DNA of 64,000 bases from Actinomycetospora succinea (lineage in GTDB: Bacteria; Actinomycetota; Actinomycetes; Mycobacteriales; Pseudonocardiaceae), in contig NZ_SNYO01000009.1 of assembly GCF_004363095.1 (NCBI RefSeq), positions 1 to 64,000 on the forward strand. The letters are read 5' to 3'. Below are positions 46,725-61,720 of this stretch, piece after piece (position 1 is the first letter of the stretch; each line of letters opens with the position of its first letter). The notes below the pieces were generated by a model. That model had not been told where the DNA came from. It did no database searches and saw nothing but the letters and a program-made list of their open reading frames with translations. The translations under genes were made by a program, and so were the position numbers.

Positions 46725-47603
46725 TCAGAAGACGATCGTCGAGTGCCCGTCCAGCAGCACCCGGTCCTCGCAGTGCCACGTCACGGCGCGGGCCAGCACG
46801 TTCCGCTCGACGTCCGCGCCGCGGCGCGTGATGTCGGCGACCCGGTCGCGGTGGGAGACGCGGGCGACGTCCTGCTCGATGATCGGGCCCTCGTCGAGGT
46901 CCTCGGTCACGTAGTGGGCCGTCGCCCCCACCAGCTTCACCCCGCGCGTCTTCGCCTGCTCGTACGGGCCGGCGCCGGCGAACGCGGGCAGGAAGGAGTG
47001 GTGGATGTTGATGGCCGGCACCCCGATGCGCTCGAGGAAGCCGCCGGTGAGCACCTGCATGTAGCGCGCGAGCACGACCAGGTCGACCCGGCCCTCGAGC
47101 AGCTCGGCCTGCTGCCGCTCCGCCTCCGGCTTGGTGTCCCTCGTGACCGGGATGTGCGCGTACGGCACGTCGAAGGAGGCGACCTCCTTCTGCAGGTCCG
47201 GGTGGTTGGACACCACCTGGACGACGTCGACCAGCAGCTCGCCGCGGCGCCACCGCCACAGCAGGTCGAGCAGGCAGTGGTCGTAGCGCGACACGAACAG
47301 CGCGACCCGGGTGGGCACCGACGCCGCCCGCATCCGGAACGACATCGCGAAGCGCTCGGCGACCTCCGCCGCGAACTCCTCCTCCAGCGCCGGGAGCCAC
47401 TGGGGCAGCTCGGGCATCCGGAAGACGATCCGCAGGAAGAAGCGCCCGCCGACGGGGTCGGTGGTCTGCTGGTCGGACTGGACGATGTTGGCCCCGCGCG
47501 CGTGCAGGAACCCGCTGATCGCCGCGACGATGCCCGGCCCGTCCTCGCAGGAGACGAGGAGACGCCCGACCTCGGGGTCCGGCAGGGTGCGGGTGGCGTC
47601 CAT
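46725..47603 (-). CDS. purU: formyltetrahydrofolate deformylase
   Basis: 292-aa enzyme hydrolysing 10-formyl-THF to formate and THF. An N-terminal ACT domain (CEDGPGIVAAISGFLHARGAN) precedes a formyltransferase-fold catalytic domain with ARYMQVLTGGFLERIG, INIHHSFLPAFAGAGPY (catalytic His and Asn) and HYVTEDLDEGPIIEQD (catalytic Asp). It lies two bases after a DAO-family demethylase-type gene. In methylamine- and glycine-betaine-degrading bacteria purU often accompanies demethylases, because it frees THF from the C1 load. Cytosolic. ATG at 47603. Confidence 0.95.
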   Translation of the reverse strand: MDATRTLPDPEVGRLLVSCEDGPGIVAAISGFLHARGANIVQSDQQTTDPVGGRFFLRIVFRMPELPQWLPALEEEFAAEVAERFAMSFRMRAASVPTRVALFVSRYDHCLLDLLWRWRRGELLVDVVQVVSNHPDLQKEVASFDVPYAHIPVTRDTKPEAERQQAELLEGRVDLVVLARYMQVLTGGFLERIGVPAINIHHSFLPAFAGAGPYEQAKTRGVKLVGATAHYVTEDLDEGPIIEQDVARVSHRDRVADITRRGADVERNVLARAVTWHCEDRVLLDGHSTIVF

Positions 47604-49761: not shown

Positions 49762-50985
49762 TCAGCGCACCGCGGCCAGGCGCGCCCGCGACCACGGCTC
49801 GGCGGCGCTCTCCTCCTCGGCGACGAGCGCCTGGCGGTAGTACTGCTGGGCCGCCGCGACGCCCGCGCCGGCCTCGAGCGGCACGCCCGCGTCGAGCAGC
49901 GCCATCTCGGCCGCGGCGAGCGCGCTCAGGCAGGACACCTCGTTGACGTCGCCGAGGTGCCCGATGCGGAACACCTTGCCGGCCACCTTGCCCAGGCCGC
50001 CCCCGAAGGACGTCCGGTAGCGGTGGTACGCGATGCGGCACACCGCGGCCCCGTCGACCCCGGCCGGCACCCGCACGGCGGTCACCGTGTCCGAGTACCA
50101 GCGCGGCGACAGCGCGCACAGCTCCAGCCCCCACGCCTTGACGCCCTGCCGCACGCCCTCCCCCAGCCGGTGGTGCCGCGCGGCGACCTCGTCCATGCCC
50201 TCGTCGAGGAGCCGGTCGAGCGAGGCCCGCAGGCCGTGCAGCAGCGAGGTCGGCGGGGTGTAGGGGAAGTAGCCGACGTCGTTCGCGGCGATCATGTCGC
50301 GGAACGCGAAGTAGCACCGCTCCGTCGTCGTGCGCTCCGCGGCCGCGAGCGCCTTCTCGCTGACGCCGAGGATCGCGAGGCCCGCCGGGAGCATGAACCC
50401 CTTCTGGCTCCCGGCGACCGCGACGTCGACGCCCCAGTCGTCCTGGCGGAACTCGATCGACGCGATCGACGAGACGCCGTCGACGAAGAGCAGCGCGTCG
50501 GAGCCCGCGGCGTCCATCGCGCGCCGCACGGCCCGGACGTCGCTGGTCACGCCGGTGGCGGTCTCGTTGTGCGTCACGAAGACGGCCCTGATGGACGGGT
50601 CGGCGCGCAGGGCCTGCTCGAAGGCCTCGACCGGGACGCCCTCGCCCCACTCGACGTCGTGGGCGACGACGTCGAGACCCAGCCGCTGCGCCATGTCGGC
50701 CCAGAGGGTGGAGAAGTGGCCGTGGCGCGCCATGAGGACCCGGTCGCCGCGGGAGAGGCAGTTGCTGATGGCCGCCTCCCACGCCCCGGTGCCGGAACCC
50801 GGGTAGAGCAGCACGCGGCCCTCGCGGAGCCGGAGGACGCGGGTGAGGTCGCCCAGCAGCTCGAGGACGAAGTCCGGGAAGTCGGGCGCCCGGTGGTCCT
50901 CGGTCGGGACGTTCATCGCCCGGCGGACCACCTCGGGCACGGTGGTCGGGCCGGGGACGAAGAGGTGCGTCGTTCCGATCTTCAC
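49762..50985 (-). CDS. class V aminotransferase (serine/alanine-glyoxylate aminotransferase-like)
   Basis: 407-aa PLP enzyme of fold type I. FVPGPTTVPEVVRRAMNVPTEDHRAP opens the protein. The PLP site includes YPGSGTGAWEAAISN, VDGVSSIASIEF and the Schiff-base lysine in AGSQKGFMLPAGL; the GLGKVAGKVFRIGHLGDVNE stretch with the carboxylate-binding Arg is typical of SgaA/AGT enzymes. It converts glyoxylate to glycine using serine or alanine, which would fit downstream handling of glycine or sarcosine carbon or a serine cycle. The GTG at 50985 follows AGGAGGAACGGCC. It stands between the IclR gene and tmm on the minus strand, behind a strong hairpin. Confidence 0.88.
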   Translation of the reverse strand: MKIGTTHLFVPGPTTVPEVVRRAMNVPTEDHRAPDFPDFVLELLGDLTRVLRLREGRVLLYPGSGTGAWEAAISNCLSRGDRVLMARHGHFSTLWADMAQRLGLDVVAHDVEWGEGVPVEAFEQALRADPSIRAVFVTHNETATGVTSDVRAVRRAMDAAGSDALLFVDGVSSIASIEFRQDDWGVDVAVAGSQKGFMLPAGLAILGVSEKALAAAERTTTERCYFAFRDMIAANDVGYFPYTPPTSLLHGLRASLDRLLDEGMDEVAARHHRLGEGVRQGVKAWGLELCALSPRWYSDTVTAVRVPAGVDGAAVCRIAYHRYRTSFGGGLGKVAGKVFRIGHLGDVNEVSCLSALAAAEMALLDAGVPLEAGAGVAAAQQYYRQALVAEEESAAEPWSRARLAAVR

Positions 50986-51086: not shown

Positions 51087-52427
51087 TCACTCCTTCCCCA
51101 GGAACGTCGTCAGGGAGTCGTCGTGCGCCTCCCACCACGCGGTGTGGTGGATCGGGGCCTGCGTCCCGGTGCACGGCGAGGAGAAGCCGCGGTCGCGGTA
51201 GCCGATGATGCTCTCCTCCTTGTCGTGCTCCCACTTCTTGAAGTGGGCGCGGGTGAGGTCGAGGTCGAAGGCGGGATAGTCGGTGCCGGCCATGAGGTCG
51301 GCGATGTGGTCGGCCTGGAAGTCGATCTGGGCGAACGGGTCCGGCAGCGCGTCCTCGCGCGAGCGCCACTCCGCGACGTCCTTCGCCATGTCCTCGCGCG
51401 AGGGCAGGTCGACGCGGCCCAGCACGAAGTCGCGCGCCACCCACGCCTCCGCGTCGAAGAGCGTGAACGTGTAGAACTGGTCCTGCATGCTCAGGTACAT
51501 CATCTTCGGGTTGTCGATCCAGAAGACGCCCTTGTAGAGGTCCGGCGGGTACAGCACGTTCGCCGTCCGCAGCCGCAGGTCGGACGCGACGAACGGGAAG
51601 TGGTGCTGGTAGCCGGTGCACAGGATGATCGCGTCGACGTCCCGCGAGCTGCCGTCGCTGAAGTGCGCCGTCTTCCCCTCCACGCGCGAGAGCAGCGGGA
51701 CCTCGCTGATCCCCTCGGGCCACGGGAAGCCCATCGCGGCGCTGCGGTAGCTGATGGTCACGGTGTTCGCGCCGTACTTCTTGGCCTGCAGCGCGATGTC
51801 CTCGGCGGAGTAGCTCCCGCCCACGACCAGCAGGTCCTTGCCCGCGAACTCCTGCGCGTCACGGAAGTCGTGCGAGTGCAGGATGCGCCCCGGGAAGCGG
51901 TCGAAGCCCGGGAAGTCGGGCAGGTTGGGCACCGAGAAGTGCCCCGTGGCGACGATGACGTAGTCGAACTGCTCGACCCGCGAGGCGCCCTCGGCGAGCG
52001 CCTCAACGGTGACATCGAACGCGTCGCGCGCCGGGTCGTGCTCGATCCACCGCACGGCGGTGTCGAACTGCACGTGCCGGCGGACGTCGCTGTTCTCCGC
52101 GCGCCCCTTGATGTAGTCGAAGAGCACCTCGCGCGGCGGGAACGACGGGATCGGCGTCCCGAAGTGCTGTTCGAAGGGGTAGTCGGCGAACTCGAGGCAT
52201 TCCTTGGGCCCGTTCGACCACAGGTAGCGGTACATGCTGCCGTGGCACGGGTTGCCGTACTGGTCGAGGCCGCTGCGCCACGTGTAGTTCCACAGCCCGC
52301 CCCAGTCGCTCTGCTTCTCGAAGCAGACCAGCTCGGGCACGTCGGCGCCCGCCGCCCGGGCCTGCTCGAACGCGTGCAGCTGGGCCAGCCCGCTCGGGCC
52401 GGCGCCGACGATGGCTACCCGTGTCAT
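51087..52427 (-). CDS. tmm: trimethylamine monooxygenase (FMO-type)
   Basis: 446-aa class B flavin monooxygenase oxidising trimethylamine to trimethylamine N-oxide with NADPH and O2. Seen: AIVGAGPSGLAQLHAFE (FAD site), the long LVCFEKQSDWGGLWNYTWR and GSMYRYLWSNGPKECLEFADY stretches that I recognise from marine and Methylocella Tmm, the FMO signature FPGRILHSHDF, the NADPH site VVGGSYSAEDIALQ and CTGYQHHFPF. Length equals known Tmm proteins. The next upstream gene, 27 bases away, is the TMAO demethylase Tdm; the two encode consecutive steps. The ATG at 52427 follows AGGAGGACTGTCC. Other N-alkyl or S-substrates are possible side activities. An actinobacterial Tmm is noteworthy. Confidence 0.92.
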   Translation of the reverse strand: MTRVAIVGAGPSGLAQLHAFEQARAAGADVPELVCFEKQSDWGGLWNYTWRSGLDQYGNPCHGSMYRYLWSNGPKECLEFADYPFEQHFGTPIPSFPPREVLFDYIKGRAENSDVRRHVQFDTAVRWIEHDPARDAFDVTVEALAEGASRVEQFDYVIVATGHFSVPNLPDFPGFDRFPGRILHSHDFRDAQEFAGKDLLVVGGSYSAEDIALQAKKYGANTVTISYRSAAMGFPWPEGISEVPLLSRVEGKTAHFSDGSSRDVDAIILCTGYQHHFPFVASDLRLRTANVLYPPDLYKGVFWIDNPKMMYLSMQDQFYTFTLFDAEAWVARDFVLGRVDLPSREDMAKDVAEWRSREDALPDPFAQIDFQADHIADLMAGTDYPAFDLDLTRAHFKKWEHDKEESIIGYRDRGFSSPCTGTQAPIHHTAWWEAHDDSLTTFLGKE

Positions 52428-52454
52428 GGACAGTCCTCCTGTGGATGGGTGGCG

Positions 52455-54821
52455 TCAGGAACGCGGGCGTTCCTTGTCGGGGTCGTAGAACGGGAACCGG
52501 ACGACCTGGGCCGGGATGCGCTTGCGGTGGCCGTCGAGCTTCCCGACCTCCACCTCGGTGCCGATCTCCGCGTGCTCGACGGCGAGCCGGCACAGGGCGA
52601 TGTTCTTGCGCAGGATCGGCGAGCGGGTCGCGCTGGTGACGACGCCGACCTGGTGGCGCCCGACGTGCACGCAGTCCCCGTGGTGCGCGGTCTCGTTGCC
52701 CGCGAGCTCGAGCCCGACGAGGCGCCGCTGCGGGCTCGCCTTGCGCGCGACGAGCGCGTCGCGGCCGACGAAGTCGTCCTCCTTGGTCTTCAGCGGCACG
52801 GTGAACCCGACGCCCGCCTCGAAGGGGTCGACGTGGTCGTCGAAGTCGTAGCCGGCGAAGACGAGGCCCGACTCGATGCGCAGGATGTCCAGGGCGTCGA
52901 GACCCAGCGGCAGCATCCCGTAGGGCTCGCCGGCCGCCCACACCGCGTCCCACACCGCCGGGCCGTCCGACGGGTGGCAGAAGATCTCGTAGCCGAGCTC
53001 GCCGGAGTAGCCGGACCGCGACACGACGACCGGGATGCCGCGGTGGTCGCCGAGCCGGCCGATCGTGAACCGGAACCAGGTCAGGTCGCCGAACGCCGGC
53101 TGGGTGCCCGGGGTCCAGACCAGCTCGCGGAGGATCTCGCGGCTCGCGGGCCCCTGGACCGCGATGTTGTGCATCTCGTCGGTCGAGTGCTTGACCCAGA
53201 CCCGGTCGAGCCCGAGCCGCTCGGCCTGCTCGCGCAGCCAGGTGCCGGTGTACTCGTCGCCGCCGATGAAGCGGAAGTTGGTGTCGGCGAGCCGGAAGAC
53301 CGTGCAGTCGTCGATCATCCCGCCGGTCTCGTTGCAGACCGCCGAGTACACGAGCTGGTTGATCGAGAGCTTGCGGACGTTGCGGGTGACGCAGGCCTGC
53401 AGCAGCGCCTCGGCGTCGGGGCCGAGGACCTCGAACTTGCGCAGCGGCGACAGGTCCATCACCGCCGCCCGTTCGCGGCAGGCCCAGTACTCGTCGATCG
53501 TGCCGTGGCCGTCGAAGCTGGTCGGCAGCCAGTAGCCGCGGTACTCCGTGAACTGGCGGGTGAGGGCCCGCGTCCGCGGGGAGAAGCCGGTCTCCTTGGT
53601 CAGCGACGCGGGGTGCTCGGGCGTGGGGCGGTGCGCCATGGCCATCGAGAACTTCCGTTCGGCGGAGTAGACGCGCAGGTGGATGTCGGTCGGCGTCCAG
53701 GCGTTGGCCGGGTCGATGTCGTCGGGGCAGGCGGAGGTCGCGCAGACGAGGTCGACACCGGCGCGCATCAGCACGTAGTCCCCGGGCCGCGACCACGGCT
53801 CGTCGAAGACCAGCTGGTTCTGCGCGTCGAACGCGGTGTTGTAGAAGAGGTTGAGCGCGGGCCAGCCGGCGCGCTCCTCGATGCCGTAGGGCCGCAACTG
53901 CTCGTTGAAGTTGTCGGTGCAGTTGATGTGCCCGAAGTAGCCGAGGTCCTCGTAGTACTTCGTGTTGCAGGCCAGGCCGAACGTGTCGTGGCGGCCCACG
54001 GTGTCGCGGACGATCTCGACCAGCGGCTCCATGTCCTGGTCGTAGAACTTCCCGTGCAGCCCCGGCTGCGGGTACGCCTGGCCCATGAAGTACCGGGTGG
54101 CGGTCGCGTCGAGCCCGCGCTCGCGGCCCTCCTGGAGCATGGGCGCGTGGAAGGCCAGGAAGTCCGAGCACTGGCGGCCCTCGACGTCGAGGACCTGGAT
54201 GTACTGGCCGGCCTTCACCTCGTAGCTGAAGGCCGTCGCGGCGTCGACGCGGATGTCGAGGATCGGCTCGGCGAGCGGCGGCGGCAGCGGCGGCACCTCG
54301 GCCACCCGCGGCTGGGCGCGCCGCACCTCGAGCACCAGGTCCGAGGGCGGGTTGCCCGTCGCCTCGTCCACCGCCATCGGACCGCCGGGGGCGGCGACGA
54401 GGACGATGCCCGGCGCCGCCGCGCGGAGGGTCTCGCGCGACCCCGCCGGCGACCACTCCCCGAACAGGTACGCCGCGCGGAGCTCGCCCGGGTCGAGGCC
54501 GTGGGCCACGAGCGTGGCGAGCACCGGGTCCTCGATCCCGTGGGGCGTCGCCGGGAGTGCGCGCAACGTCGTCGCCGGCGCGTCCGCGGTGACCCCGAGC
54601 AGGTCTCGCGCCCCTTCTCCCGCCGGGCCGAGCGCCGTGACCTCCGCCCGCTGCCGGCCCTGCCGGTCGACGACGGTGATCTCGTCGCCGCCGTGCACGC
54701 GCACGGCCGTGACGCCGCCGGGGCGGACCCAGTAGGTCTCGACCCCCGGCACCGCCTCGAGCAGGCCCGGCAGCCGCAGCCGCCGGGAGGGGATCACGGG
54801 TGGCGTGGTCGGTGCAGCCAT
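52455..54821 (-). CDS. tdm: trimethylamine N-oxide demethylase (DUF1989-GcvT fusion)
   Basis: 788-aa two-domain protein. The N-terminal part (about 1-400) contains DUF1989-type sequence with candidate zinc cysteines in GRQCSDF, LACNTKYY and TSACPDD. From about residue 410 a GcvT/aminomethyltransferase domain follows (WACRERAAVMDLSPLRKFEVLGPDA, YTGTWLREQAERLG, AGYDFDDHVDPFEAGVG). This order and size match Tdm of Methylocella and marine Roseobacters, which splits TMAO to dimethylamine and formaldehyde; the GcvT part can capture formaldehyde on THF. It lies directly upstream of tmm, supporting the call. The ATG at 54821 precedes AAPTTPPV. An extra N-terminal half-domain (residues 15-170, GGVTAVRVHGGDEITVVDRQ) is a second degenerate DUF1989-like copy. 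Cytosolic. Confidence 0.9.
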   Translation of the reverse strand: MAAPTTPPVIPSRRLRLPGLLEAVPGVETYWVRPGGVTAVRVHGGDEITVVDRQGRQRAEVTALGPAGEGARDLLGVTADAPATTLRALPATPHGIEDPVLATLVAHGLDPGELRAAYLFGEWSPAGSRETLRAAAPGIVLVAAPGGPMAVDEATGNPPSDLVLEVRRAQPRVAEVPPLPPPLAEPILDIRVDAATAFSYEVKAGQYIQVLDVEGRQCSDFLAFHAPMLQEGRERGLDATATRYFMGQAYPQPGLHGKFYDQDMEPLVEIVRDTVGRHDTFGLACNTKYYEDLGYFGHINCTDNFNEQLRPYGIEERAGWPALNLFYNTAFDAQNQLVFDEPWSRPGDYVLMRAGVDLVCATSACPDDIDPANAWTPTDIHLRVYSAERKFSMAMAHRPTPEHPASLTKETGFSPRTRALTRQFTEYRGYWLPTSFDGHGTIDEYWACRERAAVMDLSPLRKFEVLGPDAEALLQACVTRNVRKLSINQLVYSAVCNETGGMIDDCTVFRLADTNFRFIGGDEYTGTWLREQAERLGLDRVWVKHSTDEMHNIAVQGPASREILRELVWTPGTQPAFGDLTWFRFTIGRLGDHRGIPVVVSRSGYSGELGYEIFCHPSDGPAVWDAVWAAGEPYGMLPLGLDALDILRIESGLVFAGYDFDDHVDPFEAGVGFTVPLKTKEDDFVGRDALVARKASPQRRLVGLELAGNETAHHGDCVHVGRHQVGVVTSATRSPILRKNIALCRLAVEHAEIGTEVEVGKLDGHRKRIPAQVVRFPFYDPDKERPRS

Positions 54822-54831
54822 CGGCGCTCCC

Positions 54832-54942
54832 CTACAGGCGGCGGACGAAGAGCCGCGCCATCACGAGGGCGGCCACGGGCAGGCCGATGAACAGGATCGT
54901 CGCCAGCACGGGACCGGCGGCGTAGGCGAAGAAATCGCTCAT
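54832..54942 (-). CDS. 36-aa single-pass membrane peptide
   Basis: Thirty-six residues: a short N-terminus, one hydrophobic helix (about residues 9-30, VLATILFIGLPVAALVMARL) and a basic end (RLFVRRL), so the C-terminus is probably cytoplasmic. The ATG at 54942 overlaps the stop of the 106-aa protein gene (ATGA), and the next gene tdm begins 10 bases on. Translational coupling on one side and short spacing on the other argue that it is real. It could be an accessory subunit for the DMT-type transporter encoded two genes upstream, by analogy with other small transporter partners. No family recognised. Confidence 0.65.
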   Translation of the reverse strand: MSDFFAYAAGPVLATILFIGLPVAALVMARLFVRRL

Positions 54943-55259
54943 GCCGGGACTCCTCCTCGGTTCGTGGCCAGGCCGGACTGCGCCATGCGCTCGCGGCCGA
55001 AGTCGGTCAGCGCGTACTTGAACAGCACGCGCTCCTCGCCCTGGGTGCGCTCCGGGTCGACGGTGGCCTCCTGCTCGCTGAGCAGGCCGCCGGCGTAGAG
55101 GTCGACGAGGGTGAGCCGGACCGTCCCCCGCCAGTAGGGCCCGGACACCCCGTACTCGGCCTCCACCGCGTCGATGACGGCGTCGGTCCACAGCGGGCCG
55201 CGGTCGGCGAAGAGCTGCAGGACGTACCCCTTCATGTGCATGCTCTGCTTGTTCGACAT
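54939..55259 (-). CDS. small winged-helix-like protein (106 aa), PadR-like
   Basis: 106-aa protein. HMKGYVLQLFADRGPLWTDAVIDAVEAEYG and WRGTVRLTLVDLYAGGLL look like the first helices and recognition helix of a winged-helix domain, and VLFKYALTDFGRERMAQ like the wing and C-terminal helix seen in PadR-like regulators. The starting stretch MSNKQSMHMK offers a second Met (residue 8). It lies four bases after the transporter gene and overlaps the 36-aa peptide. It may sense substrate and regulate the transporter-tdm-tmm operon, or be a non-DNA-binding adaptor. Family assignment is tentative. Confidence 0.68.
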   Translation of the reverse strand: MSNKQSMHMKGYVLQLFADRGPLWTDAVIDAVEAEYGVSGPYWRGTVRLTLVDLYAGGLLSEQEATVDPERTQGEERVLFKYALTDFGRERMAQSGLATNRGGVPA

Positions 55260-55263
55260 GGGC

Positions 55264-56349
55264 TCAGGCCTCCTGCCGCGCCGAGGTGGAGGTGCGCGTC
55301 GAGCGCGCCGGGACCGCGCGGAGCACCTCGAGGACGTCGCGCTTCTCGGTGAAGAGCACGAAGCTGCCGATGACGGCGATGAGGCCGCCGATCACGAACT
55401 CGAGGCCCGGCGGCTCGAGGGTGAAGACGTAGAGCCAGACGAGGGCGAGCGGTCCGTAGAGCGCGGCGATCGCCTGCCCGCGCCCGACCCCGATGAGCGG
55501 GAACGACTTGTACCAGGACACGTAGCAGAACCCGAACGTCAGACCGAGCAGCACGAGCAGCAGCAGGACGGTCGGACTGGCGAGCGCGGCACCGATCGTC
55601 GCCCAGAACGTCGCGCCGGCGGCGATGGAACAGATCGGCACGACGATGACGAGCCAGATCGCGACCTCGGCGGTGAAGCGCAGGGTCAGCCCGACGTCGG
55701 GGTCGCTGACGTCGAGCGCGCGCCCGGCGATGGCGCCCTCGAGGCCCCAACCGACGATCGCGCACACGCCGCCGAGGTAGCCGAGCCAGGCGCCGCCGCC
55801 CGCTCCGCTGATCTCGCCGAGGATGCCGGGCGCGAAGATGACGACGCCGCCGAGGACGATGACGACGATGCCCAGCGCGGCCCGCTTGGTGATCGTCTCG
55901 CCGTACCAGGCGCGGGCGGCGAGCGCCCCGACGATCGGGTAGAGCAGGGCCGCGACGGCCGAGAAGCCGGCGCCGATGTAGGCGATGGCCACCACCGAGC
56001 CGAAGATCGCGAGCATGCCCGCGAGCCCGGCCGGGAGGTACCAGCGCGAGATCTTCACCTGGCGCAGCGTGCGGCCGTAGTCCTTGGTCTTGCCCAGCAC
56101 CGCGACCCAGACGGCCATCGCGATGAGCACCGCGACCGCGTTGAGGATCGTCACCACGACGGCGGCGAGCAGGTAGCCGCCCCCGCTGGTGGGCGCGTCC
56201 ACGAACGGCGACTCGGCGTAGATCACGGAGCCGGGGACGTACCAGGCACCCCACAGCACGGCGCACGTCAGCGCCCAGATGAAGCCCCACCGGACCTGAC
56301 GGTTGCGGTACTCGTTGCGGAGCTCGTCGATCTGCGTCGGACTCGTCAT
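55264..56349 (-). CDS. DMT/EamA-superfamily membrane transporter
   Basis: 361-aa integral membrane protein with ten predicted helices in two EamA-like repeats (for example WGFIWALTCAVLWGAWYVPGS first, LGLTFGFCYVSWYKSFPLIGVG in the second half). N- and C-termini are hydrophilic (about 20 and 30 residues). It heads the operon transporter - winged-helix - 36-aa peptide - tdm - tmm, so methylated amines, TMAO or a breakdown product such as formaldehyde-derived metabolites are reasonable cargo; import versus export is open. Known TMAO uptake systems are ABC (TmoXVW) or BCCT type, so a DMT protein here would be new. The ATG at 56349 follows GGAGGTGACC, a strong ribosome site. Confidence 0.82.
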   Translation of the reverse strand: MTSPTQIDELRNEYRNRQVRWGFIWALTCAVLWGAWYVPGSVIYAESPFVDAPTSGGGYLLAAVVVTILNAVAVLIAMAVWVAVLGKTKDYGRTLRQVKISRWYLPAGLAGMLAIFGSVVAIAYIGAGFSAVAALLYPIVGALAARAWYGETITKRAALGIVVIVLGGVVIFAPGILGEISGAGGGAWLGYLGGVCAIVGWGLEGAIAGRALDVSDPDVGLTLRFTAEVAIWLVIVVPICSIAAGATFWATIGAALASPTVLLLLVLLGLTFGFCYVSWYKSFPLIGVGRGQAIAALYGPLALVWLYVFTLEPPGLEFVIGGLIAVIGSFVLFTEKRDVLEVLRAVPARSTRTSTSARQEA

Positions 56350-56696: not shown

Positions 56697-58097
56697 ATGC
56701 CTACCGACATCGAGAACTTCGTCGCCCAGGACGGGCGCAAGGAGGCCGTCGAGGAGGTCCGACGGAAGATCGACGAGGGCGACGTCAAGTACATCTACTA
56801 CCAGTTCGCCTCGGTCACCGGCCGGATCATGGGCAAGGGCGCACCGGCCGACCACTGGGAACGCTTCACCACGAAAGGTTTCCAGCTGGTCTACGGCTCG
56901 ACCGCCAACCTCTTCACCGACCGGCACGGCGAGTACATCGGCTACGGCGCCGAGGCCACCGAGCTCGTCGGGATCCCCGACGTCGAGACGTTCCAGATCC
57001 TCCCGTGGGACCCGAAGACCGCGCGCGTCTTCTGCACGCTGTTCCGTGGCCGCGAGGAGCCCGAGGACCCGGGCTCGTTCCTGACGTCGGACTGTCGCGG
57101 CAACCTCAAGCGGATCCACCAAGACTTCGAGGAACGCACCGGCTATCACCTCAAGATCGGCACCGAGCCCGAGATGATGTGGCTGAAGACCAATCCCGAC
57201 GGCACGCCGTCGGTGGACGGCATGACGAAGCCGTACTGCTACCACATCGACCAGTTCAGCGAACTGCAACCGTTGATCCACCGGATCATGGAGTACAGCA
57301 GCGCGATGGGTCTCGACATGATCCAGGGCGACCACGAGGACGCCCCGGGCCAGCTCGAGCTCAACTGGCAGTTCGACCGCGCCGAGCTCACCGCCGACCG
57401 CCTGACGACCTACCGCCAGATCTGCCGCCAGGTCGGGCGCGAGTTCAACGCCTTCCCGTGCTTCATGCCCAAGCCCTTCACCGGGGTCTCGGCCAACGGC
57501 TGCCACCACAACATGTCCCTGTGGGACCGCGGTGACACCAACGTCTTCCTCCCCGAGGGCGACGACCCCCGCATGCCCAGCAAGATCGGGCTGGCGGCCA
57601 TCGGCGGCGTCCTCGAGCACCTCTCGGCCCTGACGTGCATCACCTCGCCGACGGTGAACTCCTACCGCCGGCTCTGGGACGCCGGGTTCTGGGCGCCGCT
57701 GTTCGCCGACTGGGGATTCCAGAACCGCACGACCGCGCTGCGCGTGAGCTCGCCCGACCGTTTCGAGTACCGCTCCGTCGACTCGGCGGTGAACCCGTAC
57801 CTCTCCTTCGCGGCCCTCATCCAGGCGATGGGCGACGGCATCCAGCGCAACCTCGACCCGGGGCCGCCCGAGGAACGCAACATCTACAACGCGATGGCCG
57901 AGGGCAAGGAGGTCCGGAAGATCCCCATGAACCTCGGCGACGCGCTCCGCGCGCTCGACGCGGACGAGGTCGTGCGCAGCGCGATGCCCGGCGACATGTA
58001 CCGGGTCTTCGAGCACTACAAGCGCGACGAGTGGGAGCGGTTCTGTGCCGCGGTGACCGACTGGGACGTCAAGGAATACCTCGACATCCTCCCCTGA
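56697..58097 (+). CDS. gmaS: glutamine-synthetase-family amine ligase, candidate gamma-glutamylmethylamide synthetase
   Basis: 466-aa GS-fold ligase, complete. Seen: the N-terminal beta-grasp FASVTGRIMGKG, GTEPEMMWLK (metal Glu), GDHEDAPGQLELNW, MPKPFTGVSANGCHHNMSLW (ATP/metal His block), TSPTVNSYRRL, and RVSSPDRFEYRSVDSAVNPYLSFAAL (glutamate-binding Arg and NPY). It lacks the Tyr adenylylation motif of GlnA. With mgsABC behind it, ATP-dependent joining of glutamate and methylamine to gamma-glutamylmethylamide is the best call; related GS-like ligases act on isopropylamine, aniline or putrescine, so the amine is not certain. The ATG at 56697 follows GGGAGG at eight bases. It differs clearly from the disrupted copy at 35163. 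Confidence 0.82.
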   Translation: MPTDIENFVAQDGRKEAVEEVRRKIDEGDVKYIYYQFASVTGRIMGKGAPADHWERFTTKGFQLVYGSTANLFTDRHGEYIGYGAEATELVGIPDVETFQILPWDPKTARVFCTLFRGREEPEDPGSFLTSDCRGNLKRIHQDFEERTGYHLKIGTEPEMMWLKTNPDGTPSVDGMTKPYCYHIDQFSELQPLIHRIMEYSSAMGLDMIQGDHEDAPGQLELNWQFDRAELTADRLTTYRQICRQVGREFNAFPCFMPKPFTGVSANGCHHNMSLWDRGDTNVFLPEGDDPRMPSKIGLAAIGGVLEHLSALTCITSPTVNSYRRLWDAGFWAPLFADWGFQNRTTALRVSSPDRFEYRSVDSAVNPYLSFAALIQAMGDGIQRNLDPGPPEERNIYNAMAEGKEVRKIPMNLGDALRALDADEVVRSAMPGDMYRVFEHYKRDEWERFCAAVTDWDVKEYLDILP

Positions 58098-58117: not shown

Positions 58118-59047
58118 ATGTGTGGGATCGCAGGAATCATCCACACGGACGGGCCGGGCGACGTCGGTACCGAGATGACGAAGATGCTCCAGTCCATGAA
58201 GCACCGTGGACCGGACTCCGCGGGATACGCGCTCTACGGCGAGCCGTCAGAGCTCGTCGTGATGCGCTTCAAGCTCGCCGACCCGAACGAGACGTCCGAC
58301 TTCGACTACAACGAGCGCCTCGAGCGCAACCGCCGCGAGGTCGAGTCCCGCCTCTCCAAGATCGGGGCGACGGTCGACCGCGTCGAGGGCGAGTCGGCCT
58401 ACGCGTACCGGGCGACCTTCCGCTACGAGGGCGAGCTCAAGCCCCTGGCCGACTACGTCGAGGACATCCCAGGGTGCGAGGTGCTCTCGCTCGGGCACTC
58501 GCTGGAGATCGTGAAGGACCTCGGCGACGCGCAGACGGTCGCGGACCAGTACCGCCTCGACAGCTTCCGCGGCACGCACGCCATCGGGCACGTCCGGATG
58601 GCGACGGAGTCGGACGTCGACATCGCCGGGGCGCACCCGTACTGGGCCTACCCGTTCTCCGACGTCGCCGTGGTGCACAACGGCCAGCTGACGAACTACC
58701 ACCAGTGGCGCCGGCGCCTCGAGCGCAACGGCCACCGGTTCCAGTCCGAGTGCGACTCGGAGATCATCGCGGTCTACCTGGCCGAGCGCCTCGCCGACGG
58801 CACGAGCCTCGAGACCGCGATGAAGCAGAGCCTCGACGACCTCGACGGCGTCTTCACCTACCTCGTGGTGACCGAGGACAGCCTCGGCATGGCGAAGGAC
58901 GCGATGGCCGCGAAGCCGCTGGTCCTGCACGAGGGCGAGAACCTGGTCGCGCTCGCGTCGGAGGAGAGCGCGATCCGCGCGGTGCTCCCCCAGGAGATCG
59001 ACTCCTACGACCCCTACGAGTCGGAGGTGCTGGTGTGGTCGCGATGA
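58118..59047 (+). CDS. mgsA: class II glutamine amidotransferase-type subunit of N-methylglutamate synthase-like enzyme (second copy)
   Basis: 309-aa Ntn amidotransferase: MCGIAGIIHTDG (Cys2 nucleophile), MKHRGPDSAGYAL, GHVRMATESDVDIAGAHPY, VVHNGQLTNYHQWRR and SECDSEIIAVYLAERL. Compared with the first copy it carries an insertion of about 50 residues between residues 45 and 110 (FDYNERLERNRREVESRLSK region), so the two operons are not recent duplicates. The ATG at 58118 follows AAGGAGAACGCC, 20 bases after the ligase stop. Its own stop overlaps mgsB by ATGA. Confidence 0.84.
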   Translation: MCGIAGIIHTDGPGDVGTEMTKMLQSMKHRGPDSAGYALYGEPSELVVMRFKLADPNETSDFDYNERLERNRREVESRLSKIGATVDRVEGESAYAYRATFRYEGELKPLADYVEDIPGCEVLSLGHSLEIVKDLGDAQTVADQYRLDSFRGTHAIGHVRMATESDVDIAGAHPYWAYPFSDVAVVHNGQLTNYHQWRRRLERNGHRFQSECDSEIIAVYLAERLADGTSLETAMKQSLDDLDGVFTYLVVTEDSLGMAKDAMAAKPLVLHEGENLVALASEESAIRAVLPQEIDSYDPYESEVLVWSR

Positions 59048-59841
59048 ACCCACCGACGGAGCAGGACACCCGCGGGGTGCGCAACGACATCCGCGGGCTC
59101 GCCGAGCCCGACGCCGAGGCGCCGAAGGTGGCCCGGATCGAGGGCGGGACCGCGACGTTCGACGCCGCGGATCTCAGCCCCCGGCTGGTCAACCTCGAGC
59201 TGCGCCGGCTGGTCTACGGCGAGGGCGTCCGGGAGATCCGGGTCGAGAACCCCGGCGCCAAGCACTCGATCGCGGTGGGCCTGCTCGCCCGGTGCCGGAT
59301 CACCATCAACGGCAGCCTCGGCTACTTCGGCGCCACGCTCGGCGACGGGCCGGAGATCCACATCACCGGCCGCGTCGGCTGGTCGGTGGCCGAGAACATG
59401 ATGTCCGGCGTCGTGGTGATCGACAAGAACGCGGGGTCGCTGACCGGCGCCGCCATGCGCGGGGGCGACCTCGTCGTCCGCGGCCACGTCGGCGCCCGCA
59501 CGGGCATCGACCAGAAGGGCGGCACGATCATCATCGGCGGCAACGCCGGGTCGATGACCGGCTTCATGATGCAGCGCGGCCGCCAGATCATCTGTGGCGA
59601 CGTCGGGCCCGGCATGGGCGACTCGATGTACGACGGCGCCATCTACGTCGGCGGGACCGTCGCCGCGCTCGGGGTCGACTGCGTCGAGGAGGAGCTGACG
59701 CCGGACGACGAGGAGCTGCTCGACCGCAAGCTCGGGATCTACCGCATGGACCGGCCGGACACCTTCCGGAAGTTCGTCTGCGGCAAGCAGCTCTACAACT
59801 ACGACAACCTCGAGCCGTCCGAGCGCAAGCTCGTCCTGTGA
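59044..59841 (+). CDS. mgsB: GXGXG-domain subunit of N-methylglutamate synthase-like enzyme (second copy)
   Basis: 265-aa beta-helix protein: INGSLGYFGATLGDGPEIHI, GWSVAENMMSGVVVIDKNAG and GGNAGSMTGFMMQRGRQIICGDVGPGMG give the regular Gly turns. A C-terminal extension (KLGIYRMDRPDTFRKFVCGKQLYNYD) parallels the first copy's FHFTSEHS-type end but is longer. The ATG at 59044 overlaps the mgsA stop. It serves as scaffold between the amidotransferase and FMN subunits. Confidence 0.84.
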   Translation: MNPPTEQDTRGVRNDIRGLAEPDAEAPKVARIEGGTATFDAADLSPRLVNLELRRLVYGEGVREIRVENPGAKHSIAVGLLARCRITINGSLGYFGATLGDGPEIHITGRVGWSVAENMMSGVVVIDKNAGSLTGAAMRGGDLVVRGHVGARTGIDQKGGTIIIGGNAGSMTGFMMQRGRQIICGDVGPGMGDSMYDGAIYVGGTVAALGVDCVEEELTPDDEELLDRKLGIYRMDRPDTFRKFVCGKQLYNYDNLEPSERKLVL

Positions 59842-59853
59842 GGAGAGGGTCAC

Positions 59854-61263
59854 ATGGCTGACGAGATGGCCAGCTCCGAGAGCATGGGGCTGGGCAAGAG
59901 CAGGATCTTCACTCCCGAGGTCATCAACGACATCCACGTGAAGGCCGATCTCGGCCGCTACCGGATGCGCGGGGGCGGCATCTTCAAGAAGATCCCGCAC
60001 TGGGACGAGCTCGTGTTCCTCCCGGGCACGCTCACGCGCTTCGTGATCGAGGGCTACCGCGAGAAGTGCACGACGAAGACCGTCCTCGGGTCGCGGTTCG
60101 CCAAGAACCCGCTCGAGCTCGACATCCCGATCTACATCACCGGGATGAGCTTCGGCGCGCTGTCGCTGGAGGCCAAGATGGCCCTGGCCAAGGGCGCGTC
60201 GATGGCCGGCACCGCCACGTGCTCGGGCGAGGGCGGCATGATCCCGCCCGAACGCGACTTCTCGACGAAGTGGTACTACCAGGTCATCCAGAGCCGGTAC
60301 GGGTTCAACCCGCACCACCTCATGCTGGCCGACGCCGTCGAGTTCTTCATCGGCCAGGGCTGCAAGGTCGGCATGGGCGGGCACCTCATGGGCCAGAAGG
60401 TCACCGAGCAGGTGGCCGAGATGCGCTCGCTGCCGGCCGGGATCGACCAGCGCAGTCCCGCCCGGCACCCCGACTGGCTCGGCCCGGACGACCTGTCGCT
60501 GAAGATCCAGGAGGTCCGGGAGGCGACGGACTACCAGGTCCCGATCCAGCTCAAGCTCGGTGCCTCGCGCGTCTACGACGACGTGCGGATGGCCGCCAAG
60601 TGCGGTCCGGACGTGATCTTCCTCGACGGCGCCGAGGGCGGCACCGGCGCCGGCCCGCACATCGCCACCGAGGAGACCGGCATCCCGCTGCTCGCCGCGA
60701 TCCCCGAGGCCCGCCGGGCCCTGGAGGACGTCGGCCTCGCCGACGAGATCGACCTCGTGGTGGCCGGCGGGATCCGCAACGGCGGGGACGTCGCCAAGTG
60801 CATCGCGCTCGGCGCCGACGCCATCGCCATCGGGAGCGCCGCGCTCATGGCGCTGGGGTCGAACAAGGAGGTCGAGGGCGCCGACTACCAGGGCACGTTC
60901 GGCGTCTCGGCGGCCGAGTTCTACCACTGGCACACCGGCAAGGACCCGGCCGGCATCACCACCCAGGACCCGGAGCTGCGCAAGCGCCTCGACGTCGACG
61001 AGGGCGCCACGCGCGTCTACAACTTCCTGCACACCCTGACCCTCGAGGTCCAGATGCTCGCTCGCGCGTGCGGCAAGACCGACGTGCACAGCCTCGAGCC
61101 CGAGGACCTCGCCGCACTCACCACCGAGGCGGCGGCGATGGCGCGGGTGCCGCTGGCCGGCACCAGCTACATCCCCGGGGTCACCGAGTCGCAGACCCTC
61201 GAGGAGATCAAGACCCTGCTCGCCAAGCACGTCGCCAACGACGGGGGAGGCTCGGATGTCTGA
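59854..61263 (+). CDS. mgsC: FMN-binding glutamate-synthase-type subunit of N-methylglutamate synthase-like enzyme (second copy)
   Basis: 469-aa TIM-barrel synthase subunit. ITGMSFGALSLEAKMALAKGA, SGEGGMIPPERD, QGCKVGMGGHLMGQKVTEQ, LKLGASRVYDD and the FMN-phosphate loop VVAGGIRNGGDVAKCIALGADAIAIGSAALMALG are visible. The C-terminal QMLARACGKTDVHSLEPEDLAALTTEAAAMARVPLAGT is almost the same as in the first copy. The ATG at 59854 follows GAGGAGAGGGTCAC. It overlaps the next gene by eight bases, showing that the 154-aa unknown protein belongs to the same operon. Confidence 0.86.
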   Translation: MADEMASSESMGLGKSRIFTPEVINDIHVKADLGRYRMRGGGIFKKIPHWDELVFLPGTLTRFVIEGYREKCTTKTVLGSRFAKNPLELDIPIYITGMSFGALSLEAKMALAKGASMAGTATCSGEGGMIPPERDFSTKWYYQVIQSRYGFNPHHLMLADAVEFFIGQGCKVGMGGHLMGQKVTEQVAEMRSLPAGIDQRSPARHPDWLGPDDLSLKIQEVREATDYQVPIQLKLGASRVYDDVRMAAKCGPDVIFLDGAEGGTGAGPHIATEETGIPLLAAIPEARRALEDVGLADEIDLVVAGGIRNGGDVAKCIALGADAIAIGSAALMALGSNKEVEGADYQGTFGVSAAEFYHWHTGKDPAGITTQDPELRKRLDVDEGATRVYNFLHTLTLEVQMLARACGKTDVHSLEPEDLAALTTEAAAMARVPLAGTSYIPGVTESQTLEEIKTLLAKHVANDGGGSDV

Positions 61264-61720
61264 CGGGCCCGAGAAGCAGTTCGACCTGTCGCAGCGGCGG
61301 CTGACGACCCGCCAGGGCATCGACACCGAGGAGCTCACCGGGCGGACCTTCCCGTACCAGTTCGATCCGGGCCTGGTCGAGGGCATCGACCTGCAGGCCT
61401 CGACGCCGGGCGACGACCTGAACTGGCTCGAGGACATCCACCTCATGGAGGAGGACGGCATCCCCGCCGTCTTCGACCGCTACACGAACGCGTTCCTCAA
61501 GATTCACTTCGACATCCCGTCGGGGCGCGAGGACGAGTTCGCGCGGAAGGTGCTGATCAAGCACCTCCAGGAGGGCAACTCCTACGGGATCTGGCTGAAG
61601 CACCAGCACGCGAAGTTCCCCCAGCCCGAGCTCGGCCCGTGGCTGACGGAATCGGCGACGGTCGGGGAGAACTGGACCCCTCCGACCGTGGAGCGCTGGG
61701 ACAAGTCGTTCACGTTCTGA
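61256..61720 (+). CDS. 154-aa protein of unknown function coupled to mgsC
   Basis: Soluble, acidic protein beginning DGPEKQFDLSQRRLTTRQG, with central LEDIHLMEEDGIPAVFDRYTNAFLKIHFDIP and LKHQHAKFPQPELGPWLTES. Aromatic and acidic residues dominate; there is no Cys pair or membrane segment. The eight-base overlap with mgsC means coupled translation, and the gene has no counterpart in the first mgs operon, where a DAO flavoenzyme takes this place. It may be a subunit or chaperone of the synthase, or a binding protein for the amide. Family not recognised. Confidence 0.75.
   Translation: MSDGPEKQFDLSQRRLTTRQGIDTEELTGRTFPYQFDPGLVEGIDLQASTPGDDLNWLEDIHLMEEDGIPAVFDRYTNAFLKIHFDIPSGREDEFARKVLIKHLQEGNSYGIWLKHQHAKFPQPELGPWLTESATVGENWTPPTVERWDKSFTF

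Follow-up and report, generated by a model that had tools for sequence, protein, structure and literature searches.

Within a 64,000-nucleotide stretch of the Actinomycetospora succinea genome (hereafter the window; part of contig C9 of a 6.47 Mb genome in 23 contigs), we describe a cassette of three genes, encoding an EamA/DMT-type transporter, a winged-helix (WH) protein and a 36-aa membrane microprotein, followed by the genes of a trimethylamine N-oxide (TMAO) demethylase (Tdm) and a trimethylamine (TMA) monooxygenase (Tmm). The same three genes were recovered on proteobacterial plasmids beside trimethylamine dehydrogenase (TMADH). Tmm–Tdm and TMADH, which are not related to each other, both achieve in net terms the conversion of TMA to dimethylamine (DMA) and formaldehyde. 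The locus is a TMA catabolism island, and the company kept by the cassette indicates that it is probably a dedicated TMA uptake unit.

The five genes (EamA/DMT, WH, 36-aa peptide, tdm and tmm) lie on the minus strand, spanning 56349 to 51087 (Table 1), all found as the original prediction had described them. Its statement that most junctions measure four bases or less holds for only two of the four, namely the EamA–WH gap (4 bases) and the WH–peptide overlap (4 bases), the peptide–tdm and tdm–tmm spacings being of 10 and 27 bases. Among named relatives, Actinomycetospora lutea comes closest, its Tdm reaching 94% in the best-matching segment. Sequence comparisons further upheld the proposed enzyme identities, the flavin-containing monooxygenase-type gene being tmm and the DUF1989 plus GcvT gene being tdm. 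Tmm scored 797 bits against the equivalog cut-off of 675 (NCBIfam NF058570) and matched 13 distinct PDB sequences at 574.6–630.2 bits, the next chain falling to 197.1; several of these 13 are near-identical variants, and their labels read trimethylamine monooxygenase in one case, flavin-containing monooxygenase in 11 and "small molecule metabolism" in one. The equivalog model and this score gap stand in for a tree in the Tmm assignment. Tdm, whose two domains were recognized by Pfam, scored 1185.7 bits against the equivalog cut-off of 1100 (NCBIfam NF053776) and 908 bits against the solved TMAO demethylase PDB 9q59, with residues 11–788 covered. Its zinc cysteines and iron ligand are present and the metal residues in register (C285, C301, C365, H298, D368 and D220), corresponding by spacing, without an alignment of that protein, to C263, C279, C343, H276, D346 and D198, the residues named for the Methylocella silvestris Tdm in the available part of PMC12560246. 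Judging from their families, Tmm would oxidize TMA to TMAO and Tdm would cleave TMAO into DMA and formaldehyde. In two other loci (L012 and L061), Tmm is only 58–59% identical to that of the window, for 76–79% in Tdm and 68–81% in EamA, and the tmm gene of both seems to have been independently exchanged.

The transporter carries an EamA domain by Pfam and its structure model adopts a DMT fold, which places it in the DMT/EamA superfamily. The only PDB sequence match of its profile was the choline importer LicB (E 9e-5, 18% identity), with which its alignment shares a W-G-x-E stretch. In addition, a DMT protein from Methanohalobium evestigatum, a methanogen, shares 42% (tblastn) to 44% (alignment) identity with it. 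The "winged helix" label of the second protein proved right despite the lack of a Pfam match (none at E up to 1 for 11 members; none against NCBIfam at 0.001 for the window copy), since its AlphaFold model (pLDDT 88) follows an H-H-H-E-E-H order and its best PDB matches are RosR/PadR-type regulators, a PadR-like fold that is also common to MarR and others.

All 12 actinobacterial loci preserve the reading frame of the microprotein together with its start, its stop and its C-terminal motif, as do all 15 when the plasmid loci are included. Pairwise differences amount to 505, 518 and 943 at the three codon positions, hence concentrated in the third, and nonsynonymous divergence (dN) is below synonymous divergence (dS) in 10 of 11 comparisons with the window copy, the exception being L064 (0.464 vs 0.441). 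Conservation is lower in the five alternative frames of this DNA (0.38–0.47 vs 0.60, eight sequences tested), including the antisense in-phase frame, which is open in 8/8 sequences too but less conserved (0.42 vs 0.60). A chance open reading frame (ORF) is ruled out by the features kept across the 15 loci and by the codon-position bias; on this pattern of constraint, we conclude that the 36-aa ORF is a gene. Eight residues are invariant across 15 sequences, every copy has a hydrophobic 19-residue stretch (mean Kyte-Doolittle 1.75–2.69), and the net charge ranges from 0 to -2 over the N-terminal eight residues and is +2 or +3 over the C-terminal nine. Under the positive-inside rule, this charge pattern and the hydrophobic stretch suggest a single membrane span with its C-terminus inside. 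Of the 11 other actinobacterial loci with cassette, tblastn with the window copy detected the peptide in eight and missed true copies in L016, L061 and L064; the remaining three were found by reading the WH–tdm gap. Absence was assessed with the motif and all copies as queries, the motif occurring exactly once in each of the 14 cassette loci besides the window and in 0/15 tdm loci without cassette. The PLSDB gene table, which is incomplete, has no gene at the peptide position in Azoarcus, and in Paracoccus aminovorans only an overlapping WH gene or nothing.

Tdm was detected in 15 of 297 genomes of the family (Pseudonocardiaceae), and a Tdm match was obtained in 16 of 396 genomes of a phylum sample, 11 (own included) of Tdm length and 5 restricted to GcvT. 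EamA occurred in 10 of the 297 family genomes, all within the 15 tdm-positive ones (eight in one piece, G037, a draft of 730 contigs, in two pieces, and G056 as an N-terminal remnant), and WH in nine, every match beside tdm. This co-occurrence with tdm reached hypergeometric values of 2e-15 for EamA and 1e-13 for WH, uncorrected for relatedness. Together with two further named Pseudonocardia loci and ten from outside the family, the 15 family genomes provided 27 tdm loci, among which the Tdm of G081 lies in two pieces and that of G634 is matched from residue 132. The cassette was searched genome-wide within the family; outside it, some contigs are short and distant copies possible. The expected co-occurrence of the transporter and both small genes with tdm elsewhere was recovered in 12 loci (peptide in 12/12 with cassette, 0/15 without), whereas conservation "across actinobacteria" was not borne out as put, the cassette being at 12 of 27 loci, 11 of them in one family and a single one outside. 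The order EamA–WH–peptide was observed in all 15 loci read (12 actinobacterial, three plasmid), including L010, where EamA is on another contig, and the 4-base WH/peptide overlap in 10 of them. The only cassette outside the family (G565; 1/21 in its own family) belongs to a single run of gmaS–mgsABC–154 aa–EamA–WH–peptide–tdm–tmm–DAO. By contrast with these intact copies, G056 retains before tdm only two adjoining fragments, one from the N-terminus of EamA and one of 15 residues from the peptide (L060:9390-9710), with no WH match, so that its cassette seems to have decayed as a unit. No cassette trace was found genome-wide in five tdm-positive family genomes (G178, G018, G049, G077 and G081). 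In G178 (A. cinnamomea, L011), an ammonium-transporter gene takes the slot before tdm (L011:8408-9931), and another such gene is found opposite, accompanied by a small protein of 126 aa (L011:6185-8242), to which an 82-aa protein following an Amt-like gene near tdm in L065 is similar by eye.

The copies that changed the interpretation were found on plasmids. Among 72,556 plasmid records (thresholds of E up to 1e-8 for EamA, 1e-3 for WH and 1 for the peptide), five matched EamA, four WH and four the peptide (two different queries). The bacterial matches to all three formed one set of four records, from Paracoccus aminovorans (two), Azoarcus KH32C and Cupriavidus oxalaticus, all with TMADH. The fifth EamA match was the M. 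evestigatum gene, a lone relative of the transporter, with neither WH nor peptide found in the following 1 kb. The P. aminovorans run comprises TMADH (1315 bits to the solved trimethylamine dehydrogenase), an Fe-S protein, an unknown, electron transfer flavoprotein (ETF) beta and alpha, a GcvT-like protein, the transporter, WH and the peptide, with ~6.7 kb between TMADH and the transporter downstream of it. In Azoarcus and Cupriavidus, a 73%-identical TMADH is located ~10.7 and 11.8 kb upstream of the transporter on the same strand; in Azoarcus, porin, histidine-kinase and response-regulator genes are found between the ETF genes and the transporter. The L117 record is without annotation and its genes were read by eye from ORFs, L121 is likewise unannotated with its genes unread, and the TMADH gene of L116, beyond the stretch, was placed by the plasmid TMADH search. 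TMADH of at least 70% identity occurs in seven plasmid records, of which four carry the cassette. Furthermore, at E up to 1e-80 Tdm has matches in 139 plasmid records, which in 118 extend over 80% of the Tdm length, so that tdm is not generally accompanied by the cassette. The association of the same transporter, WH and peptide with TMADH in Paracoccus, Azoarcus and Cupriavidus calls for a change in the description of a "TMAO-handling unit" first given to these genes.

The substrate of TMADH is TMA, not TMAO, and what the two enzyme routes have in common is TMA as source and DMA and formaldehyde as products, not TMAO. Because it is kept with both Tmm–Tdm and TMADH, the transporter most simply moves TMA; and because the cassette accompanies TMADH, TMA (or the shared product DMA) fits better than TMAO. 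The likeness to LicB and the precedent of the methanogen permease MttP, as far as the available parts of the sources describe it, agree with TMA import. Import of TMA is thus the best reading of the cassette, which we favour with reserve. From the gene identities, order, conservation, co-occurrence and predicted folds, we infer a substrate, a direction, a complex and a role for WH as follows. The transporter would take up TMA as the trimethylammonium cation; the peptide would sit as a small subunit against it in the membrane, N-terminus out and lysine/arginine-rich C-terminus in; WH may adjust the cassette to the amine supply, as a DNA-binding regulator or a cytosolic partner; and the divergent gmaS–mgsABC-like genes, judging from their families, would process methylamine further. 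A bolder and rather unlikely version would make of the cassette a previously undescribed three-part membrane unit, in which the DMT transporter has an obligatory 36-aa transmembrane microprotein and a cytosolic WH that gates or senses it, no longer (or not only) binding DNA, so that TMA uptake is coupled to the expression of the TMA enzyme present in the cell, whichever it is. The whole would have been exchanged between Actinobacteria and Proteobacteria in one piece and been paired with two unrelated TMA enzymes.

Several observations weigh against the favoured reading of TMA import. Uncharged TMA can cross membranes unaided. The confidence of the transporter model is middling (pLDDT 74.5), and LicB and the triose-phosphate translocator tie as best fold matches by Z (26.3 and 26.4). 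WH is acidic in 11/11 actinobacterial copies compared (pI 4.6–5.5), an uncommon property in a DNA-binding protein, and visual comparison of the best inverted repeats ahead of EamA at 10 loci showed no palindrome common to them. The cassette is not essential to either route, 14 of the 27 actinobacterial tdm loci having none and one a remnant, and the three Paraburkholderia plasmid records whose TMADH is at least 70% identical giving no EamA match. Actinobacterial cassettes follow tdm more closely than tmm, in position and in divergence. Finally, Tmm, present in 11 of the 12 actinobacterial genomes or loci with cassette, was not found in the cassette genome G103 (a draft, 90% complete), which would fit TMAO as substrate.

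These last points lead to the alternative that TMAO itself is what the transporter takes up, a role filled in other systems by TmoXVW (ABC) and TmoP, with TMA entering by diffusion. It would explain why the cassette stands directly before tdm in 12/12 actinobacterial loci, why EamA and WH distances track those of Tdm (r 0.86 and 0.78, 45 pairs) and not those of Tmm (r 0.37 and 0.30, 36 pairs), and how G103 can combine cassette and tdm with no Tmm found. However, the same cassette accompanies TMADH, which acts on TMA, in three proteobacterial species, and the related transporters are linked to TMA or choline; we consider TMAO import unlikely, the plasmid cassettes having made a TMAO-specific transporter less probable. 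Another alternative concerns the 36-aa ORF, which could encode an independent membrane peptide, or a leader setting tdm translation, rather than a transporter subunit. At the 12 actinobacterial loci it immediately precedes tdm and often overlaps the WH gene, which would suit such a role, but the peptide stays with EamA–WH where no tdm follows (Paracoccus, Azoarcus and Cupriavidus), its sequence is under constraint at the protein level, and none of the 15 tdm loci without cassette has its motif, which makes this proposal distinctly doubtful. Handling of the shared product DMA, by export or uptake, appears improbable to us: TMADH and Tdm both release DMA with formaldehyde, and DMA might accumulate in a genome with no PF11927 match, but the gmaS–mgs-like and DAO genes alongside suggest its further use, and LicB is an importer (PDB title), as MttP is described as an uptake permease in the available text. 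Finally, transport of some other methylated amine (choline, glycine betaine or carnitine) that feeds TMA or one-carbon metabolism, as LicB being the sole PDB sequence match could suggest, is very improbable, both enzyme partners seen being TMA enzymes and no choline- or betaine-cleaving genes having been noticed in the annotated stretches, for which no systematic search was made.

We know of no small subunit of LicB. This protein of Streptococcus pneumoniae (PDB 7b0k, 7paf) resembles the transporter by its DMT fold, its W-G-x-E stretch and its place as sole PDB sequence match, and differs by its 18% identity, its shorter length and its other pathway. DMT-type permeases for methylamines had been proposed before, MttP of methanogens being already a putative TMA permease described for uptake (available parts of PMC12155760 and PMC5688252). 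An EamA protein in a choline operon of Eubacterium limosum, whose top database matches are MttP and LicB (PMC12155760, in part), likewise ties an EamA-type permease to methylated-amine demethylation. The M. evestigatum protein, likened to the transporter by 42–44% identity and standing without WH or peptide in the following 1 kb, is not established as MttP. The Tmm–Tdm pathway of Methylocella silvestris and marine Roseobacter (tmoP or tmoXVW, dmmDABC), whose enzymes including gmaS–mgsABC are listed in the available part of PMC5520151, is alike in Tmm and Tdm at the equivalog level and in its gmaS–mgsABC-like genes. It differs in that the run of the window has a DMT transporter, a PadR-like protein and a 36-aa peptide in place of the known TMAO transporters tmoXVW and tmoP (PMC5520151 and PMC4543880, in part), and in that no PF11927 (DmmD) match exists in this genome. 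The TMADH clusters of P. aminovorans, Azoarcus KH32C and C. oxalaticus share the EamA–WH–peptide cassette and differ by TMADH with ETF and Fe-S protein genes instead of Tmm–Tdm. For Gram-positive methylotrophs, tmm-like genes are described in Arthrobacter and Mycobacterium with no alphaproteobacterial-type demethylase gene found nearby (PMC5023230, in the portion available), whereas here a true Tdm adjoins tmm. In the open-licence literature, nothing was found joining trimethylamine monooxygenase, Tdm and EamA (TMADH with a DMT transporter was not searched for), nor joining trimethylamine N-oxide demethylase with Pseudonocardia; the text of PMC13390433 has no occurrence of EamA or Actinobacteria, and the cassette with its microprotein was not met in the excerpts searched. 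DMT amine permeases are thus already known or proposed, and the novelty here lies in the constant presence of WH and the microprotein as partners and in the occurrence of the cassette with two enzyme routes. A cassette that follows two unrelated types of TMA enzyme offers a concrete TMA permease candidate for aerobic bacteria and a sequence marker, and the 36-aa peptide, easily missed in annotation, would clearly exemplify a conserved microprotein that partners a DMT transporter.

Table 1. Features of the trimethylamine catabolism island in the window, in order of position.
Feature	Position	Strand	Basis
purU-like formyltetrahydrofolate deformylase (one-carbon branch)	46725..47603	-	Pfam Formyl_trans_N + ACT
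DAO-family flavin adenine dinucleotide (FAD) oxidoreductase, 444 aa	47606..48940	-	Pfam DAO
Class V aminotransferase gene, after tmm	49762-50983	-	
tmm, trimethylamine monooxygenase, 446 aa	51087..52427	-	NF058570; PDB matches
tdm, TMAO demethylase, 788 aa, DUF1989 + GcvT	52455..54821	-	Pfam, NF053776, PDB 9q59, metal residues
36-aa single-span membrane microprotein, C-terminal AR-x-FV-(R/K)-(R/K)-L	54832..54942	-	12/12 actinobacterial and 3/3 proteobacterial cassettes read
PadR-like WH protein, 106 aa	54939..55259	-	
EamA/DMT-superfamily transporter, 361 aa, 10-transmembrane DMT fold, proposed trimethylamine permease	55264..56349	-	
gmaS-like gamma-glutamylmethylamide synthetase candidate (glutamine synthetase fold), divergent from cassette	56697..58097	+	Pfam Gln-synt_C (longer ORF, same frame)
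mgsABC-like N-methylglutamate synthase genes	58118..61263	+	Pfam; same run in several relatives
mgs-like part, GATase	58118-59047	+	
mgs-like part, GXGXG	59044-59841	+	
mgs-like part, Glu_synthase	59854-61263	+	
154-aa conserved protein, no Pfam or NCBIfam match	61256-61720	+	directly after mgsC in several relatives

Further genes lie on both sides of the cassette. On the divergent side of EamA, where an APC permease gene is also present, the gmaS-like candidate scores below the cut-off of the type III glutamine synthetase model and is kept beside the mgsABC-like genes in several relatives. Beyond tmm, where an IclR-like gene was also named by eye, the DAO-family gene was found in 14 of the 15 family genomes with tdm and in 8 of the 282 without it, and among the eight tdm-negative stretches, one has mgd-like genes adjoining and none a gmaS–mgs match. 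With no DmmD domain found in the genome, the DAO oxidoreductase is a candidate, and no more than that, for the step from DMA to methylamine. The purU-like gene follows it in several relatives. In addition, an mgd-like gene set is located on another contig (C1:735-738 kb), its SoxA and SoxD being 77% and 71% identical to those of the set beside gmaS in A. lutea. The HODM/DmmD domain PF11927 had no match in the whole genome.

In one other actinobacterial locus, a TMADH/dimethylamine dehydrogenase-type flavoenzyme (Oxidored_FMN, L074:5699-7807) and an ETF-like gene, named by eye, are found near tdm and mgs-like genes, hinting that DMA oxidation may differ between lineages. Used as a query for a DMA enzyme in the genome of the window, this protein returned four matches at 29–33% and a short one, none convincing. 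The class V aminotransferase gene, for its part, was matched only in the Actinomycetospora loci L009 and L011 among the loci compared, and also stands beside the DAO gene in a tdm-negative genome of the same genus (L104).

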